Below, piece after piece: positions 52,366-61,490 of a stretch of 64,000 nucleotides of DNA. Below the pieces are notes generated by a model. The model made no database searches. It was not told the origin of the DNA and worked only from the letters and a program-made list of their open reading frames with translations. The position numbers were made by a program, and so were the translations under genes. Every line of letters begins with the position of its first letter. Position 1 is the first letter of the stretch. This stretch comes from Linnemannia elongata. Lineage: Eukaryota > Mortierellomycota > Mortierellomycetes > Mortierellales > Mortierellaceae. The stretch covers positions 62,001-126,000 of the forward strand of contig JAXBDG010000005.1 in NCBI GenBank assembly GCA_036320915.1, read 5' to 3'.

Positions 52366-52862
52366 ACAAATCAATAGAACAATGGGCTTGATCTCAGCAG
52401 ATCGTAGCAACAAGACTACTCTACTGCTTACAATACCCTGTTCAATTAAAGTCGTCTGCAATGGATTTTATCTCTTCCAATATTTGAACTTAACATTAGC
52501 AGGAACCTCACAAAGCCTTTCCGCTCTGCAAAATATCCCCACGTAGTATGATTCAGGATCCGAAGATCTATTCGTATTCTACTAAAAATCGGAAAAGGCG
52601 GTAATCGTCGCGTTCTAGCGCGGGTTCTGACGTATGGCGTTCAGCCATAACCCAACGGATGATAGTTTCGGACCATTACCTGCTCTGGTAGCCTAAATAC
52701 CAACTATCCGAATGAACAGTTCCTCTCGTACTAAGTTCAATTAGTATTGCAACAACATTTCATCAGTAGGGTAAAACTAACCTATCTCACGACGGTCTAA
52801 ACCCAACTCACATTCCCTAATAGCGGGTAAACAATCCAACGCTTACTGAATTCTGCTTCAGT

Positions 52863-52898
<36 letters not shown>

Positions 52899-52935
52899 AA
52901 CATCGCTATGAACGCTTGGCTGCCACAAGCCAGTT
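52366..52935 (-). pseudogene. Truncated, decayed 3' end of nuclear 28S (LSU) rRNA
   Basis: Read on the minus strand this matches the last roughly 570-600 nt of fungal 25S/28S rRNA, from the AACTGGCTTGTGGC segment (52935 side) to the 3' terminus ATTTGT (52366 side). Recognisable conserved blocks include the CGATGTCGGCTCTTCCTATCA segment, the GTTTAGACCGTCGTGAGA peptidyl-transferase/sarcin-side block, CCTACTGATGAA and GTAGAGTAGTC. The blocks are of the eukaryotic cytoplasmic type, not mitochondrial. Many changes from the conserved consensus are C-to-T or G-to-A. The copy stops abruptly at 52935 and no other rRNA is adjacent, so it is a dispersed pseudogene fragment, not an rDNA unit. Confidence 0.85.
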
Positions 52936-53661
52936 GTACTGAAAGAGTGAAAAATAGCTTAGCCGAAGAAAGAAAAACAGAGTAGTGGTAGAGGGCTAAG
53001 AAAGGAAGAAAACGAATGTAGGAAAAAATAGAAGCCAACCGTGACCTGTCATACACGAAATCTGCAATAGTTAGTATAGCTCACCTACTTCCATCTCTCT
53101 AAGCAAAGATAGTCTGTCACTTAATAGAGCCACTTTTGATTCTTCTAACTTAGACCCTGCTTGTTCAGAACCCAGAGTCATCTTGCTGAGAAGGGTAGAG
53201 ATATGCAGACATATAAAAATTGTTCAAAAATAAATCTTGAACAAACTCCATGTAAAATTGAACAGGGACGAATGTAGTGGGTGTTTTTTGATCGGCATAG
53301 AAAACCATAGGGAGAATGTCCAGACTGGTCTGCATGACCGTAGAAGGCCCTGGGGAGAAATCGCATAATTATTCACATTCAGAATAAAACAGTCCTCACT
53401 TAAAGAATGTACCCCAGTTTACATTACACGGTGCTAGCACACCATTTACGCACATAACACTATTTGTTATGTTTGTGAAACGGCGACTTGTTCGCACAAA
53501 TCGCGTGTAATGTGATTGAGTGTGTAGAATGTGGCTGATGAAAAATCACCTCCGCGTTTGCTTTTTTCTCTTCCCCTCTTTTCTCTTTTTCTTTGTTCTC
53601 AAACTCACAAAATCACACTCGCGAATAGCGCAACAAGAACACAAGACAAAAGCCCTGTAAC
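52936..53661. other. Spacer between rDNA fragment and Crypton gene
   Basis: No gene. The last 240 bp carry a cluster of palindromes (53421-53513) listed separately, then a CT-rich leader before the recombinase start. Confidence 0.5.
53421..53513. repeat. Nested palindrome cluster upstream of the Crypton recombinase
   Basis: ACATTACACG (53421-53430) is the exact reverse complement of CGTGTAATGT (53504-53513). Inside this frame lie a perfect 10-nt palindrome GTGCTAGCAC (53431-53440), a CATAACA/TGTTATG inverted pair (53453-53471), and a TTTGTG/CACAAA pair (53471-53500). It could be the element's 5' recombination region, an operator, or a small hairpin element. Confidence 0.6.
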
Positions 53662-56297
53662 ATGCCACGTACCACCTCTAAAATCCTCAGCAAGCCCACT
53701 GGTTCTCGTCCCGGCACCTCCGTCGCCACCACCAGCGCTGCACCAGCCTCCTCTCCCCTTCAAGCTTCCTGTCCCAACGGCAACGGCAACATCAAGAAAG
53801 GAAAAAGCCCCAAAGCCAAAACCTCCAATGGCAAGAGCGATCTGGAAGCAGCAGCGCGAACTACGGAGGAACATCTCTATGCTCCGAAGACCAAGACTAG
53901 CTACAGTGGTCAAGTCTCTCGTGCACTTGCGTACGCGAGAAGCTTTGAGGATCCTGATTGGCAAACCGCTTTCACGAAGATCTCCAAGCATACACCAGAG
54001 GTCCTTCTTGCGTACGTCTGCTACAAGTGTCGAAGCGATGGAGATGGGGAGGGTCTCTCGTATAAGACAGCCGAGGGCATTAAATCAGGGATGAAGCATT
54101 ACTTCAAGAACACGCTGGGTTGTCAGGACGATAAGTGGACCTGCGATGAGGACGGAAATTGGACGGGAAACCCTGTCCACGACATCCGCTTCGAGAACTT
54201 TCTCATTTCTCTGAAAAAGCGCGACGGAAAAGCGGGTACTAGCCGACAAAGTCTCGCAGTATCTTACAGCGACATGGTCAGACTGATGGAGCATCTTAGG
54301 GATCCAGCAACCATTGAAGCTCAGGGCGAGGCCGTTTGCAAAATGTTTCAGGCCTTTGCAGCAACTGGCTTTACCCTATGGACGAGGTAATTGTATAATC
54401 CGCATCTGATGGTGGTTTGCTGTGCTCTCTTCTTGCTTGTAATAATTAACCAACAATTTCGTGGCATTGCATTTTTTGCTTTAGAAACGAGGAGCTAACT
54501 CGCCTTCAGATAAAGGACATTGACCGTGGCCTGACCACAGAGACTGGTTCGCCGTACTTTACCATCACATTGACTTTTAGAAAAACAAATCAAGCGGATG
54601 TGACCAAAGGTACGGTTTTGCGGTACCTTTGCATGTTCTGTTTATATGTCTATGTGTACGTATCTGGTGGATAGCAACCGTAATCTTACAGTTCATGCAT
54701 ATTGACTACACCATTGCACTTAGCCAACGTCTACCAGATCCACCCACAACCAGAGGACCCATCGATTTGCTGTTATAACAAACTCCTGGAGTGGCTGGAT
54801 TGGATGGAGGCCCAAGGGCGCCAACTACAGCCTGACGATTTCGTGTTTCCTGCGTTGGATGCGAAGGGCCGTATCAAGTACCAAGAAGCCCTGTCACAGC
54901 CTCGCATACAAGGTTGGCTTGACCAGCTGACGAACCAGTCAGGTCTCTTGGCGAGACGCAATGGGAGGTTTACCACACATTGCTTTCGCCGCGGTGGTGC
55001 CCAGTTTCGGTTTATGTTTGCGAAGGAAAAGTGGTCGTTGAAAGCTGTGAAGTGGTGGGGGGGCTGGTCAGAGGGCGAGGGAACTGGTACCATAATGCGC
55101 TACCTGCTTGACGAGTACACCCGATATGAGATGGGCTTTAGCGACATGCTGGCACCGTCGCGCCAGGATAGTCGGCACGCAGTCTTCATGGGCGAGAGCA
55201 ACTCTCCAGGATCTGCCCCCGTCAGCGTACAGGCCTTATCCAAGTCGCTTGAGAAGCTCCGAGCCACACTTGATGAGGAGATGGTGCACCAGTTCTCTGT
55301 CCAGAAAAAAGAAATGGATCACCAGCTGAAGCAGATGTCCAAGTCCGTTACGGAGTCCTTGCTTGTCGCTTTGAAGGAAATGTCATCGGTCGTCCGTCCG
55401 CAAGTACCAGAGCAACAACGACAGCAACAGCAACAGCCACGACAGCCACCCCAACCCCAACCACAACCACGACAGCAACTCCAACCACAACCACGGCAGC
55501 AGCAGGAGCAGGAGGACGAGCCACCAGTTGCTCCACGCATCCCCACTGCCAAGAAGTGGCAGGACGTTATCAAGCAGTGGGAGCATGGGGATCTCGAAAA
55601 GGGATTGTTGGTCCCTCTCAAGGATTGGACAGCGACGATGAGGAAGACAGACCCAACAAGGTATTCTCAGAGGAAACTGATAGCTCTTGAGTTCATCCGC
55701 CTCGGGAGGAGTGAACGGAATATGAGAGACACGTATGGATTGAGCGCAAACGCGATAAGGGATCTTCTCGACTCTATTCGACTCTCGAATTTAAGGAGAA
55801 GGAACGACAGAGACAGAGAGGAGGAAGCGCTGGTGCAGATGGTCCAAGAGGCAGATGTGTTTGAGCCCGAGTCCGAGGCAGATAAAGAAGATATCGAAGA
55901 CGAGGAGGAAGAGGATGAAGAGGATGAAGAGGAAGAGGAGGAAGAGGAGGAAGAAAAGGAGCCGTTGACCCTCAATAGAAGAAGGATGCTGTCCGCCCAT
56001 ACGCCCGCCCATACGAGTGCACATACGCCCGCCCACAGCAAGGCAATCCTACCCAAAAGAGTTCAAGCTGAAGAGCCGGCAAGAAAATCCCAACCGGAGG
56101 ACCTTAAGCCAATCAAGAGAACCTATGGCCCTGTTCCTCGAGTGACAAGGAGTCAAAGTGTCGTGCCTACTGTTACTCCCATTACCTGTTCTTCTTTTAC
56201 TTCTAACCCCAAAACTCCTAACTCTGCCAAGCGTCGAGGAAGCAATGCAACCCTCCTCAAGTTTGAGGGTAAGAGAACGCGAAGCGAGCGTACATAG
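53662..56297 (+). CDS. Crypton tyrosine recombinase with GCR1_C DNA-binding domain
   Basis: Exons 53662-54386, 54485-54609 and 54724-56297 give 807 residues. A basic Ser/Lys-rich N-terminus precedes a core-binding region (about 70-240). The catalytic part shows Arg242 in FTLWTRNEELTRLQIKDID, with the codon rebuilt across the first splice. It also shows HCFR (His369, Arg372), Trp398 in WWGGWSEG and the candidate nucleophile Tyr410 in IMRYLLDEY. These form the R..HxxR..W..Y set of tyrosine recombinases. After a Gln/Pro-rich linker, residues about 560-640 (KKWQDVIKQWEHGD, PLKDWT, YSQRKLIALEF) form a GCR1_C domain, the DNA-binding module typical of fungal Cryptons. An acidic run and a basic C-tail end the protein. 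No frameshift or premature stop is seen, so the gene looks intact. Confidence 0.9.
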
Positions 56298-56580: not shown

Positions 56581-56588
56581 CATTGTTC
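56581..56588. repeat. Target-site duplication, left copy
   Basis: CATTGTTC directly abuts the left terminal inverted repeat; the identical octamer abuts the right one at 61278-61285. An 8-bp duplication suits Mutator-like, P-like or hAT-like transposases. Confidence 0.8.
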
Positions 56589-56614
56589 GGCTGCAGGACA
56601 ATTGGCGCCAAAAT
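56589..56614 (+). repeat. Left terminal inverted repeat
   Basis: Begins GGCTGCAGGACAAT and ends CGCCAAAAT. It differs from the reverse complement of the right repeat at positions 3, 15, 17 and 23 only. Confidence 0.82.
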
Positions 56615-56699
56615 GACGTCACCGGAGTGGCGTCATCGTGGAACTAATCCCCACAATCCAGCACTAATGCGTGGTTTCATACACGCGTAAAAATCTAGT
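56589..56699 (-). ncRNA. Candidate Fanzor guide-RNA (fRNA/omegaRNA) scaffold region
   Basis: TnpB and Fanzor systems usually transcribe their guide RNA from the segment overlapping and following the nuclease stop codon up to the element end. Here that is the 111 nt between the stop at 56700 and the left end. A 9-bp stem with a 4-nt loop lies at 56614-56635 (TGACG on one arm, CGTCA on the other, one imperfect pair). If the analogy holds, the guide would be copied from the flank beyond 56588. This is inference; no transcript is shown. Confidence 0.35.
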
Positions 56700-59600
56700 C
56701 TAAGCTCGGGTCGATTTGCCCCTCCTGCCCTTTTCCTGACTGGAAACTGTGGAAGCCCTCTTACGACGTGACGGGGCGCGACTGGAAGACCTGCTGCTGC
56801 TTGCTGCCGTGGTGCTGCTTGTCGCCGTACTGCTTGCCGCCGTGGTACTGCTTGCTGCCATGTTGCTTGAACTTGTACTGGAACTCGCCATCCATGGGTA
56901 TGATCCATCTGCTGCAAGCGGCTGCAGGTGCTTGGGCCTCTCGAAGGTCTTGAGCCGGTGTAGAACAATCTCGCACATGTTCTGAGCAGCCATCGTGTCA
57001 CGATGAAAGTACCGCTTGCACGAGTAGCAATAAAAACTCCGAAGGGTCACTTGCGCAATGAACTCGGTACATCGGGGGCACTTCTTCGATGTGTAGTATT
57101 CATTAATACCGACTACGACATAGCCTAGGGAGCGCACCTAAACATTGAGAGTCAAAGAGTACATTAGTTTTCAACACTTGAATTATATCAGCGATGTTAT
57201 CAACGACTTTGATGACAAAGGCTTACCGTTTGGACAAAGTACGAGAGAAATGTGGAGTGCAGTGTCGAAAGCTTGGAGTTGCTGGAAAACTGGCCCAAGC
57301 CAACTCCAAACAAAATGGGATCCTTGTCCTCATTGTCTTCGACTCGTCGACCAAGACTTCCTCCAACCACATCCAGCAACCTCTCGGCAAGGGCCTGATA
57401 TTCTGCTTGCTTGGCCCTCTCCAAGTCCCACGCATGCTTCTTGTAACGATTGTCATCCCCAGCATAGAACTTCTTCAGACGTGTCTCAACCAGCTCCAAC
57501 TCCTCCACATAGTTCATAACGCTTCCTGACTGTCCTCTCAGGGGTGGCAAACGGGACTCAAGATCCGCAACAGACTCCTCTTCACCTTCAGGAGTCACCC
57601 CCTTCTCGTACTCGAGCCACCTACGATGTCGAAATACTGGCTGGTAGATAGCCTTCTGCTTAACAGCCAGATTGTAGAAGGGAGGCTGGGATGAGTCGCC
57701 ACGCGGATCCGTTACTGGGTCATGAACGGGAGTCGAGACCAGATCTGGCACTGGAAATGGGTTGGTCATCAGTTCATCTGCTGCCTCCTGACAAGACAAA
57801 ACGATACCCTCCATGCACAAGCCCCCAGTTGCTTTCTCCTTGCCCTTGCACTCACCGTCCAGATCCTTAGGCAAATACGCAAAGCCACCGACCACGCAAA
57901 CTTGACCGCCATCCAAGGTAACGATCTTCATGTCATCTACGTTCTTTCCTGGCCACAACTTGGCGATGTCCTCCTTGGACTGAATGACGTTGCGGATTTC
58001 AGAGAGGTAATAGTCGGACCCGGCAACCGTGGTAGTCAGCCTTGGAGGGAGATCATCCTCGGGTAATCTCCTGAACCGCGCATCTTGGCGCTCTCGAAGC
58101 TTAAAAGCAGTGAGCTGGAACCTAAATCCATCCGTTCGTAGTGATCCATGGGGTATGTAGCCCTTTTGGTGATAGTCCTTGGGCTTCGTCTGCTCAACAA
58201 ATTGAAGGTGATCCTGAATCTCACTCAACGACCGAAGATTGATTGCGGCGCGGTGTCCAGTTTTGCGCCTCTGTCGGTTCGACAGGCCGGTGGGATCGAT
58301 GTCGCAGACGAAATTCTTGATTATAAATCCCGGCTCCTTCCCACCGATCCAGGTTTCCAGGTCATTTGTTGAAGTAACAGTGGCGGGGTTGTCCTGGTCC
58401 AATGAAGCCAACTCCACCAGCCTCTGCCGCAACGAGTCTCGCTTCCAAAAGAAGCTAGCCAGTTCTCTCTCTGAAAAAGTAACAAATCCCTGCTGCGACG
58501 AGGTGAGGGGTGTGATCCGCCACTTGTTTGGATGCATGTCGTTGAGAGCGATGAAATTTTCCGCTGCTGATATGTTTTCCTGAATGTTGAAGTCGATATA
58601 TGCCTCAACTTGCCCCTTGTCCTTCAGAGTGCACACCTACAATAAAACAGATAAACATCAGTTATATGCTTGTTTGTAATGAGGACCTCTATTAGAGTAA
58701 TCGTCAATGGGATCATATCATTACCTTATCGTACAACAAATGGGTTCCATTACGATAATGCTTCTTGAGTTCAACAGAAAGCTGACTAGCCGTGGACCGC
58801 ACCAGCATGCTCGGCGTGAACGACATACTGACATTGATCTCGCCTCGATTCCGAGAGGTATCGAATAGTTCAAGGTCGACCAAGATCCCGACAAACTTGT
58901 CGACTGCTTTACCCATAGCGGAGTTTTTGTTGGGAAGATTCTCCGAGTATAGGTACGTCAAAAAGGTCTCAAGGAACTTCACACATTTGTCGGTCTCCTC
59001 ATCAAGATCCGATTGGCCAGCATCCTTCTGACCGCCGTCGAGTCCATTATCTTTGTCAACTTTGGGCTTGATCCTCTCGCAGAGAAAATCCAGAACCACT
59101 CGCTCATCATCCGATACCGCCTCGCGTCTCGCCTTTAACCGATCAGACTCCAACAAAGCCTCGCCATTTTTCTTTCTCCTAGCCTCGACCACCGCATCCT
59201 CAATACGAGTCCGCAACGTCTCCAGAAAGCGACCAATAAGGCGTTGGGCCTTCCTCTTGATGTCCACTGCCAGCTGGGAACCCTCCTTCAGACATTTCGC
59301 CACCTCCCCCTGCAGCTCCGGCGAAAGCGACGACACTCGCCTAGTGTTAGCCTCCAACGTTCCGACCTCAAGAGAAACTGTGGGATGATGCCAGCCGAGT
59401 GACTTAGAGAGCCTCTGCTTGTCAGTCATCTTGGATGCCCTCAGGCCAGCAGCAGATGGTGCCTTGTCCGACTTCTGCTTGTCTTTGCTGTCCGTGGTGT
59501 CAGTGGTGGGTGAGTCACTTATGGAATGGGACATCGCCTTGGGAGCCTTCCACGCGAGCTGCTTGGCTCTTGCAGGAGGCTCATGGCTCACGCTCCCCTG

Positions 59601-61028
59601 GTATCGCTTGAAAGAAAACCGTTGGCTGTGTCGGGGTATTCGTGTCCTAGGCAGTGCTGGATGGCCAAGGTTTTCCTGACCCAAAGGAGTAAAAGTAGGC
59701 TCCTGGGGGAAGCCGGGCTGATGCTCTGAAGGGGTTCCAGAGGCCTTGGAGATCTGTCTTGGCGATTCCACAGTACGGTAGCGATTCCAGGATCTTGGCA
59801 CTCGCAGACGTATAATCTCATCACTGGTTTCTCTATATTATTAATCAAGTGTAATGAGAAATAATTCACATGATTGCTTCCTCAAAACAAGCTTTGCAAA
59901 TTATCAGTGAAAATACCTCAGATGCAGCTCCTGTATACGAATGCGTTTGAGCTCGTTATGCCGGGTACACAGATCCTTGAAGTGAAGATGCAGTTGCTCA
60001 TACAGGGTCTGAGCATCTGATGTGGAATCGACTCTGTTAAGTTTTGTTTGACGCTTGTCGATAAACACGCGAATAGAGTCCTCAAACTCCTTCTTTTCCT
60101 TGTTTTTCGAGATGACTCGAGTGTCCGCCAGATAGCTGTGCACCACCTCCTTAGGGTCTATATAATAAAAAAGAAAGACATTAAGCGCAGTTAGTTCTCA
60201 ATGTAAAGATAGCAAGAACATTCAGACCTGGAAATAGAAACATATTCGATCATTACCCATGCTGTTGATGGACTTGACAATAGAGAAGTTCGTGGCTGGA
60301 CCAAGAGACCAAATATTCTTGTTGTAATCGTTTTTGGACACTACTGCAAGTGCGGTGAGCTGAGCGCGGGTGATGCCGAGGGCCAAGAGGAGGTCAGGGA
60401 TGGAGTAAACCAGGATCATGTCGTTTGAAACGGGGCGCCACAAAGTCACGATAGATCCATAGGCGAGCATATCTGAATCACGGGAGATGATAATGTCCTC
60501 TGGGTTTGCGTCGATAGCGATTGCCAAGTCAGCCTCTGTTGCCACAACCTGGACTGTCCAGCCTCGTTCTGTCATATAATCCGCAAAGCTCCTCCGGCTC
60601 TCCATCGACCAGTAGAAGGAGGAGGCTAAACCTGAGCGGACGTCGGCAAAATGGCGTTTTCTAAGACGTTGATCGTTGTCGATGCGTGATTCGAGAGTGG
60701 TTAGGCTCGTTGCTGTTTGCTCCAGAGCTTTCTCTCGCCGTTTTTGGCGCTCGGCTGCGGTCTCACTCTTCTCCATGGCCGGGTCCCCATCAATGTAAAG
60801 AGTCATGTTCAACGCCGTTCCGAACCGACTGACTTCCTTCTCCAGACTGCGGTGGGCGGCGTCTTGCGACATGTTGGAGTAAGAGCTCCTGATGACATTA
60901 TAGCACGACCCAAGAACATCCAGTCGCCGTCGACCGTTGGTGATGATGCTCGCGAGTATTGATCGGTAAAGTTGGACAGGTGTGTAGCCCTTGCGTCGAA
61001 TGAAAGGGTACCAGTCGAATAGTCCCAT
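56700..61028 (-). CDS. FEN1/XPG-like flap nuclease fused to Fanzor (TnpB-like RuvC nuclease)
   Basis: Minus-strand exons 61028-60257, 60157-59917, 59832-58725, 58636-57227 and 57137-56700 join in frame to 1,322 residues. Residues 1-257 are an XPG/FEN1-type PIN nuclease: start MGLFDWYPF, Asp37, YIDGDPA (Asp80/Asp82), TEADLAIA (Glu165/Asp167), SRDSDMLAYG (Asp184/Asp186) and VVSKNDYNKNI (Asp234). These match the metal-binding acidic set of FEN1, and the last lies in the helix-hairpin-helix region. A mostly helical linker (about 258-707) follows. The Fanzor part has a RuvC-I Asp949 in VTLDGGQ, a candidate RuvC-II Glu1190 in GINEYYTSKKC, a C4 zinc ribbon (Cys1197, 1200, 1214, 1217) and the RuvC-III RD pair in FHRDTMAAQN (Asp1224). 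The known Fanzor/TnpB pattern D..[TS][TS]xx-C4..RD is fulfilled with about 243 residues between Asp949 and the TS pair. The C-tail is a Ser/Thr/Ala repeat plus basic residues, a likely nuclear signal. No lesion is seen. Confidence 0.9.
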
Positions 61029-61251
61029 TATGAAGGATACTTCATGTGATGGAAGTAATGGATGTGTCGTAAAAGGACTTGGGGAAGTAGAAAGAAAAAG
61101 AAAAAGTAGGTCGAATAAGAGCTCAAAAGCAGTGAATAAAGATACTGGGTCAAATGATTGTGCCGATATTCAATGTAATTTAGTGTCAATTGACAGTAAC
61201 TGCCGATCCATATTAGGAAATATTTCATGCATAGCTTCAGCCAATAAGAGA

Positions 61252-61277
61252 ATTATGGCGTCCATTGTCCTGCACCC
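61252..61277 (-). repeat. Right terminal inverted repeat
   Basis: Read on the minus strand it begins GGGTGCAGGACAAT and ends CGCCATAAT, matching the left repeat at 22 of 26 positions. Confidence 0.82.
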
Positions 61278-61285
61278 CATTGTTC
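61278..61285. repeat. Target-site duplication, right copy
   Basis: Second exact copy of CATTGTTC, immediately outside the right inverted repeat. Confidence 0.8.
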
Positions 61286-61490
61286 CTGTGACGTCATGTC
61301 ATCAGTTGAAATTCAGGTTACCAAGCCCTCTCGTCTTCAAAGGCGTTGTGTTGGTGAACCTTATTCAATGCATGCATGAGGCATATTTTTCTGTTTGTCC
61401 AACAACATTCCTTCCTTCCCTCTTCTTTCTTTCCCTCCTTTCCTTTCCCTTTCTTCCCTTTTCCTTATTTCCACCCTTTTCCAACCGCTC

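Follow-up and report, generated by a model that had tools for sequence, protein, structure and literature searches.

A transposon gene in Linnemannia elongata and related fungi with a predicted FEN1/EXO1-type nuclease domain joined to a Fanzor1-type nuclease

The window, a stretch of 64,000 nt from Linnemannia elongata (Mortierellaceae; GCA_036320915.1, JAXBDG010000005.1, positions 62,001-126,000 of the forward strand), contains a transposon bounded by terminal inverted repeats (TIRs) and target-site duplications (TSDs), and its features are listed in Table 1. The only evident gene in this element encodes, as predicted from its sequence, one chain in which a basic linker connects a 5′ nuclease domain of FEN1/EXO1 type to a Fanzor1-type nuclease. 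Fanzors are eukaryotic RNA-guided DNA cutters related to CRISPR-Cas12. The arrangement suggests that a programmable cut is paired with its own DNA-end trimming tool in one protein. The preliminary description of this locus was sound for the coding part, but the whole unit is the larger TIR transposon.

Table 1. Positions of the element and its parts in the window.
Feature	Position	Strand	Description
Whole transposon	56589..61277	-	4,689 bp, TIRs; ends from copy comparison
Left TSD copy	61278..61285	-	8-bp GAACAATG, 8/8 match
Right TSD copy	56581..56588	-	8-bp GAACAATG
Left TIR	61256..61277	-	GGGTGCAGGACAATGGACGCCA
Right TIR	56589..56610	-	TGGCGCCAATTGTCCTGCAGCC
Flank motif ACGTCAC	61288..61294	-	2 bp outside the target duplication
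Exon 1	60257..61028	-	Residues 1-257, FEN1/EXO1-like domain: D37, D80, K87, R94, E165, D167, D184, D186, D234
Exon 2	59917..60157	-	Last part of FEN1-like domain (ends near residue 300); linker begins
Exon 3	58725..59832	-	Linker (338-486; conserved, basic) and first part of Fanzor, about 487-707
Exon 4	57227..58636	-	Fanzor residues 708-1177, including RuvC-I Asp949
Exon 5	56700..57137	-	TNB zinc ribbon, displaced Glu1190, Asp1224, low-complexity tail, stop
Candidate omega RNA scaffold	56589..56699	-	Stop codon to right end; guide would be the flank following 56589

The five exons joined in frame into 1,322 aa, as first proposed, through GT..AG introns of 99, 84, 88 and 89 nt. Intron positions were mapped in 16 copies (three without an N half or with it cut off) by spliced alignment that was blind to the introns of the window. 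Intron 1 lay at residue 256-258, with an identical codon split, in 13/13 copies retaining the N half; intron 2 lay at 338-340 in 11 of these and at 309-311 in the remaining two. Intron 1 falls inside the FEN1-like domain, and intron 2 lies past the fold. Chance or mis-joined exons were ruled out, because the introns keep their positions across subfamilies and because the two halves are united in gene models deposited for other species. The linker blocks FNRYRT(I/V), RFSFK and HEPP were conserved. In four pairwise comparisons of seven gene segments, pN/pS stayed below 1 throughout (0.07-0.75); in three of the four pairs, the synonymous sites were near saturation.

The proposed union of a FEN1/XPG nuclease and a Fanzor in one gene is supported, since both predicted halves pass profile or fold tests. 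Residues 1-300 were predicted to adopt the FEN1/EXO1/XPG fold, at 12-18% identity to solved members. The acidic residues reported earlier as a FEN1-family signature were indeed conserved in the family alignment, the fold reaching about residue 300. Counted in 21 aligned family proteins with gaps set aside, conservation was 17/17 for D37, 19/19 for D80, 20/20 for each of E165, D167 and D186, 18/20 for D184 and 18/19 for D234, and K87 and R94 were each found in 19/19. We take these seven acids to match the active-site positions of human FEN1, and K87 and R94 presumably occupy the arch positions of the family. The Pfam XPG_I profile gave 17.7 bits for the window against a cut-off of 24.9; the copies C1:1163887 and C8:285901 scored above the cut-off, and 10/15 members of family set A3 matched at E 0.01. 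In two diverged fused copies (C9x and C12x), the E165 position read Gln by eye, and part of the family may thus carry a changed nuclease site. The N half has the fold of residues 1-300, the seven acids and the MG start in common with FEN1, EXO1 and XPG (Rad2), but differs from them in being joined to an RNA-guided nuclease; we know of no member of these families with such a partner. A search for viral relatives of this half gave 0/76 candidate stretches.

For the Fanzor half, the RuvC Asp and zinc ribbon of the preliminary description were recovered as D949 and PF07282, and the catalytic triad was extended with E1190 and D1224. The TNB zinc ribbon (PF07282) scored 41.9 bits in the window against a cut-off of 26.3 and was found in 13/15 members of set A3. 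In the same 21 aligned proteins, again with gaps set aside, D949 was present in 21/21, E1190 in 17/18 and D1224 in 18/18. In the excerpts used here, a RuvC glutamate six residues before the CxxC is given as a mark of Fanzors (Yoon et al., 2023; PMC10711439), and exactly this spacing was observed (E1190 YYTSKK C1197). Given this position rule, Glu1067 was dropped as the RuvC glutamate in favour of E1190. The same excerpts describe a RuvC-I DPG as occurring "near exclusively" in Fanzors (PMC10711439). The motif is usual rather than defining, because the active site of SpuFz1 is listed as D383/N385 in the part of its description drawn on here (PMC10432273). In the window RuvC-I reads DGG, and members of its clade have D[GAL]G; DPG occurs in C9x and C12x, which are diverged fused copies. 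The profile of the Fanzor half matched the TnpB-like protein L79 at 2.2e-4 and, weakly (E 0.035), SpuFz1 (8gkh) over the IES.(L/I)P segment, which lies in a conserved block IES.LPPLRG. The AlphaFold model of this half had a mean pLDDT of 50.7, too poor for a structure search. In the search for viral relatives, 4/35 candidate stretches matched this half, at the zinc-ribbon end only. Fanzor-like TNB zinc ribbons also occurred within about 6-15 kb of contig ends (L074, L075; C2:8289, C9:1447301, C27:2931583, C32:6152, C6:6338, C3:12111, C31:2724596); in the two that were read they adjoined an ORF judged LRR-like by eye. These are possibly a subtelomeric Fanzor family.

The N half had at least 39 matches in the genome and the exon-4 Fanzor segment at least 56. 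For 31 of the 39 N matches (30 loci), the same strand carried a Fanzor match 1.5-2.4 kb downstream. Four of the other eight, at 26-28% identity, had a same-strand PF07282 match 3.1-4.3 kb downstream, by which their reading as cellular XPG genes was ruled out; the last four (C4:913761, C17:359617, C7:810207, C8:308726) were short or stop-bearing. Two of the four with a PF07282 match, the diverged copies C9x and C12x, showed MG starts, DSD and NDY motifs and a Fanzor. Four loci with strong XPG_I matches (C32:2672978, C2:1088825, C5:78601, C5:289720) are likely cellular XPG genes. There were also 15 Fanzor fragments, at 10 loci, with no paired N match. One of them (C31b) carried a Ty3-like insert, named by eye, at the expected place of the N half, and in another (C8c) the linker was kept and the N half was not found.

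All 23 proteins retrieved with the N-half query contained sequence of both halves, in a search restricted to 0.55-1.75x the query length and hence biased to long proteins. They came from Linnemannia, Podila, Haplosporangium, Gryganskiella and Benniella, which belong to the Mortierellaceae, and from Entomortierella and Mortierella. Judged from copies and gene models, the fusion is kept across subfamilies and genera. Under the thresholds used, the 212 collected proteins comprised 34 with both halves, 99 with the N half only, 78 with the Fanzor half only and one with neither; this split is not a separation rate, because many of the short proteins were metagenome ORFs or partial records and two of the three collections excluded full-length fusions by length. 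Fifteen Fanzor-only proteins of at least 600 aa could be separate Fanzor models.

These models bear on whether the locus makes one product or two. On the two-product reading, exons 1-2(-3) would yield a FEN1-like protein, while translation starting internally, within exon 3, would yield the Fanzor separately; the two activities would then never, or only sometimes, occur in one chain. P0138, a 708-aa model deposited for a sister copy and standing for a cluster of 21 sequences, takes Met438 of exon 3 as its start; another model (P0001) ends just past exon 3; and structure prediction gave a long, disordered linker (residues 336-504 mostly pLDDT <50). However, Met438 is not conserved; over residues 300-560, no Met column was common to all 21 aligned rows, and P0009 lacked any Met there. 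Moreover, intron 1 lies within the FEN1 fold and intron 2 mostly keeps its place, models from several species span both domains, and the linker motifs are conserved with pN/pS below 1. We consider this reading unlikely, though a Fanzor-only product of smaller size may also be made.

The ends of the element were defined by its copies, which matched from GG[GC]TGCAGGACAATGGACGCCA through TGGCGCCAATTGTCCTGCAGCC and were divergent beyond. The end pattern, with up to two mismatches allowed, occurred at 43 genome sites, against 0 for the reversed control. Among the 13 copies with both ends read, the target duplications agreed at 8/8 positions in eight, at 7/8 in one and at 1-5/8 in four. Like Fanzors in general, this one is carried by a eukaryotic transposon; its TIRs and 8-bp duplications point to a DDE-type transposase acting in trans. 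No transposase was tied to the ends at the 7 unlinked end sites examined (about 18 further sites exist). Four of these (C1_4505, C9, C32e, C28e) contained Fanzor-element remnants, one (C27_513) had a left end beside Ty3-like ORFs, and C28_359 and C4e had no recognisable element remnant. By eye, a broken Fanzor element at C9:199700-208000 (L048/L064) held nested hAT-like and pogo-like ORFs. A subfamily copy (L042/L029, C1:391574-397692) lay between inverted repeats of about 398 bp, both of the right-end type.

The left flank carried the motif ACGTCAC at -17 to -11, exact in 9/19 left flanks and with at most one mismatch in 12/19; elsewhere between -70 and -7, no offset had more than one left flank within one mismatch. 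No such motif was present in 18 right flanks. It could be a TAM-like mark or a target preference of the transposase, and either explains the one-sided motif equally. It is set two free bases off the would-be guide target. The idea that the 8-bp duplication stems from a staggered cut by the Fanzor was rejected, because the motif distances of 2 and 10 bp are unlike the cut sites of SpuFz1, at about 16-20 bp in the available part of its description (PMC10432273).

With the fusion as the only evident gene and no partner transposase tied to the ends at the sites examined, the FEN1-like half might serve transposition itself, through flap or gap processing at the element ends or at replication rather than in repair of Fanzor cuts. 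FEN1-like enzymes do process replication and gap-fill intermediates. This explanation appears distinctly unlikely, given that the domain is tethered to a Fanzor and not to a transposase, and that the TIRs and duplications would call for an enzyme in trans.

At the right end, megablast aligned the window copy with the subfamily B copy C31 over the last 158 bp alone (88% identity). GTGACGT was found in 10/10 aligned right ends, and the right-end pattern occurred at 48 sites against 2 in the control. This GTGACGT is the exact reverse complement of the target-flank core ACGTCAC, which may reflect a protein site common to both, pairing of RNA or coincidence. A 113-nt stretch containing the right end folded better than its shuffles (z -2.25; 4/200 as good). 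In the consensus hairpin, 1/11 pairs had a double (compensatory) change, but 8/11 failed to pair in 1-3 of the 10 sequences, and covariation scored unfavourably (term +0.19). These data hint weakly at an omega RNA in this position. XPG/FEN1-family enzymes can process R-loops and RNA-containing flaps, and the substrate of the FEN1-like half might be RNA or an RNA:DNA hybrid; it would then trim the omega RNA or clear the R-loop once the cut is made. No specific sequence sign of such a role was seen, and we regard it as improbable to a high degree.

The neighbouring gene at 53629-56297 (+) bears an R...HxxR...Y pattern, which we take to be that of Crypton-type tyrosine recombinases; it gave no Pfam recombinase match and no recombinase family was found for it. 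Near-identical DNA occurred at 8 other places, none of them at a Fanzor copy. This recombinase-like neighbour was ruled out as part of the element, because the element ends at 56589 and those other places adjoin no Fanzor copy. Beside it, at 52368-52935 (-), lie two adjoining 3′-end fragments of eukaryotic LSU rRNA.

The element was compared with known systems through excerpts of the respective papers. SpuFz1 of the Spu-1 elements of Spizellomyces punctatus (Saito et al., 2023; PMC10432273) likewise belongs to a single-gene fungal element with inverted repeats, conserved bases just beyond the left end and a RuvC with the displaced Glu. Its RNA lies between the stop codon and the right end, where the window element has its conserved right end and candidate omega RNA. 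The one-sided flank motif is similar to the CA conserved outside Spu-1, but the TAM there is short, CATA (PMC10432273), whereas the window element has a 7-bp left-flank motif 2 bp off an 8-bp duplication. No FEN1-like domain is seen in SpuFz1 in these excerpts. PpFz1 of Parasitella parasitica is also a fungal Fanzor1 with an extra lineage-specific domain, but that domain, FRI, is linked to binding of cyclophilin and not to a nuclease (PMC11423790). The Mucoralean Fanzor1 transposons (Bao and Jurka, 2013; PMC3627910) also have inverted repeats and include Fanzor1 elements without a transposase gene (the MuDr-type ones), with duplications of 9 bp or 11-12 bp rather than 8 bp. The terms FEN1, flap and XPG are absent from the main text of Bao and Jurka (2013), and FEN1 and flap from the main text of Fanzor papers including PMC3627910, PMC10432273 and PMC11423790. 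The earlier remark that no described Fanzor with its own flap nuclease was known agrees with a search of PMC full text, which found none; most subscription journals and preprints lie outside that scope.

From the architecture, seen at the sequence level, we infer all of the functional steps that follow. The right end would be transcribed as an omega RNA with flanking DNA as its guide. The Fanzor half would find and cut the empty allele or sister locus, the nearby ACGTCAC being or overlapping the TAM, and the tethered FEN1/EXO1-like half would then remove 5′ flaps or resect the 5′ ends. Repair would be steered from end joining to copying of the element-bearing homologue, through which the element would be retained or would home. 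Transposition itself, with its 8-bp duplication, would be carried out by a transposase acting in trans. The earlier idea of a programmed cut followed by flap or R-loop trimming is compatible with the sequence. That one half makes an RNA-guided cut and the other resects 5′ ends or removes flaps, favouring homologous copying of the element, is, in our judgement, evenly poised between right and wrong. The fuller claim, a natural cut-and-resect machine in which an RNA-guided nuclease, joined to its own 5′ resection/flap nuclease, cuts the empty allele beside ACGTCAC and so compels repair that copies the element, as a built-in homing drive, is advanced more tentatively. These and the alternative readings are not mutually exclusive.

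The cut-and-resect reading is favoured by the architecture, the active sites of both halves, the pN/pS values and the retention of the fusion across genera. Further support comes from the exact 8-bp duplications, the one-sided ACGTCAC and a right end conserved where the omega RNA of SpuFz1 sits. It is weakened by the weak RNA-structure support, the DGG of RuvC-I, the Gln at E165 in C9x and C12x, the motif lying 2 bp off the guide target, the lack of an autonomous transposase partner among the sites examined, the poor folding of the Fanzor half and the start of P0138 in exon 3. The Gln, together with two members without D184, also fits a catalytically inactive FEN1-like half that serves as a DNA-binding or targeting module, a view we find very doubtful, as nearly every aligned main-clade member retains the seven acids and Lys/Arg 87 and 94.

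In eukaryotes, a lone cut is mostly repaired by end joining. A cut alone would therefore not bring the element back. If the cut-and-resect reading is true, it would provide a natural precedent for the engineered fusions of programmable nucleases and exonucleases that exist. Furthermore, the conserved flank motif and right end provide ready-made hypotheses for the TAM and the guide, and the benefit that eukaryotic transposons draw from their Fanzors would be explained by a 5′ resection or flap nuclease tethered to them.
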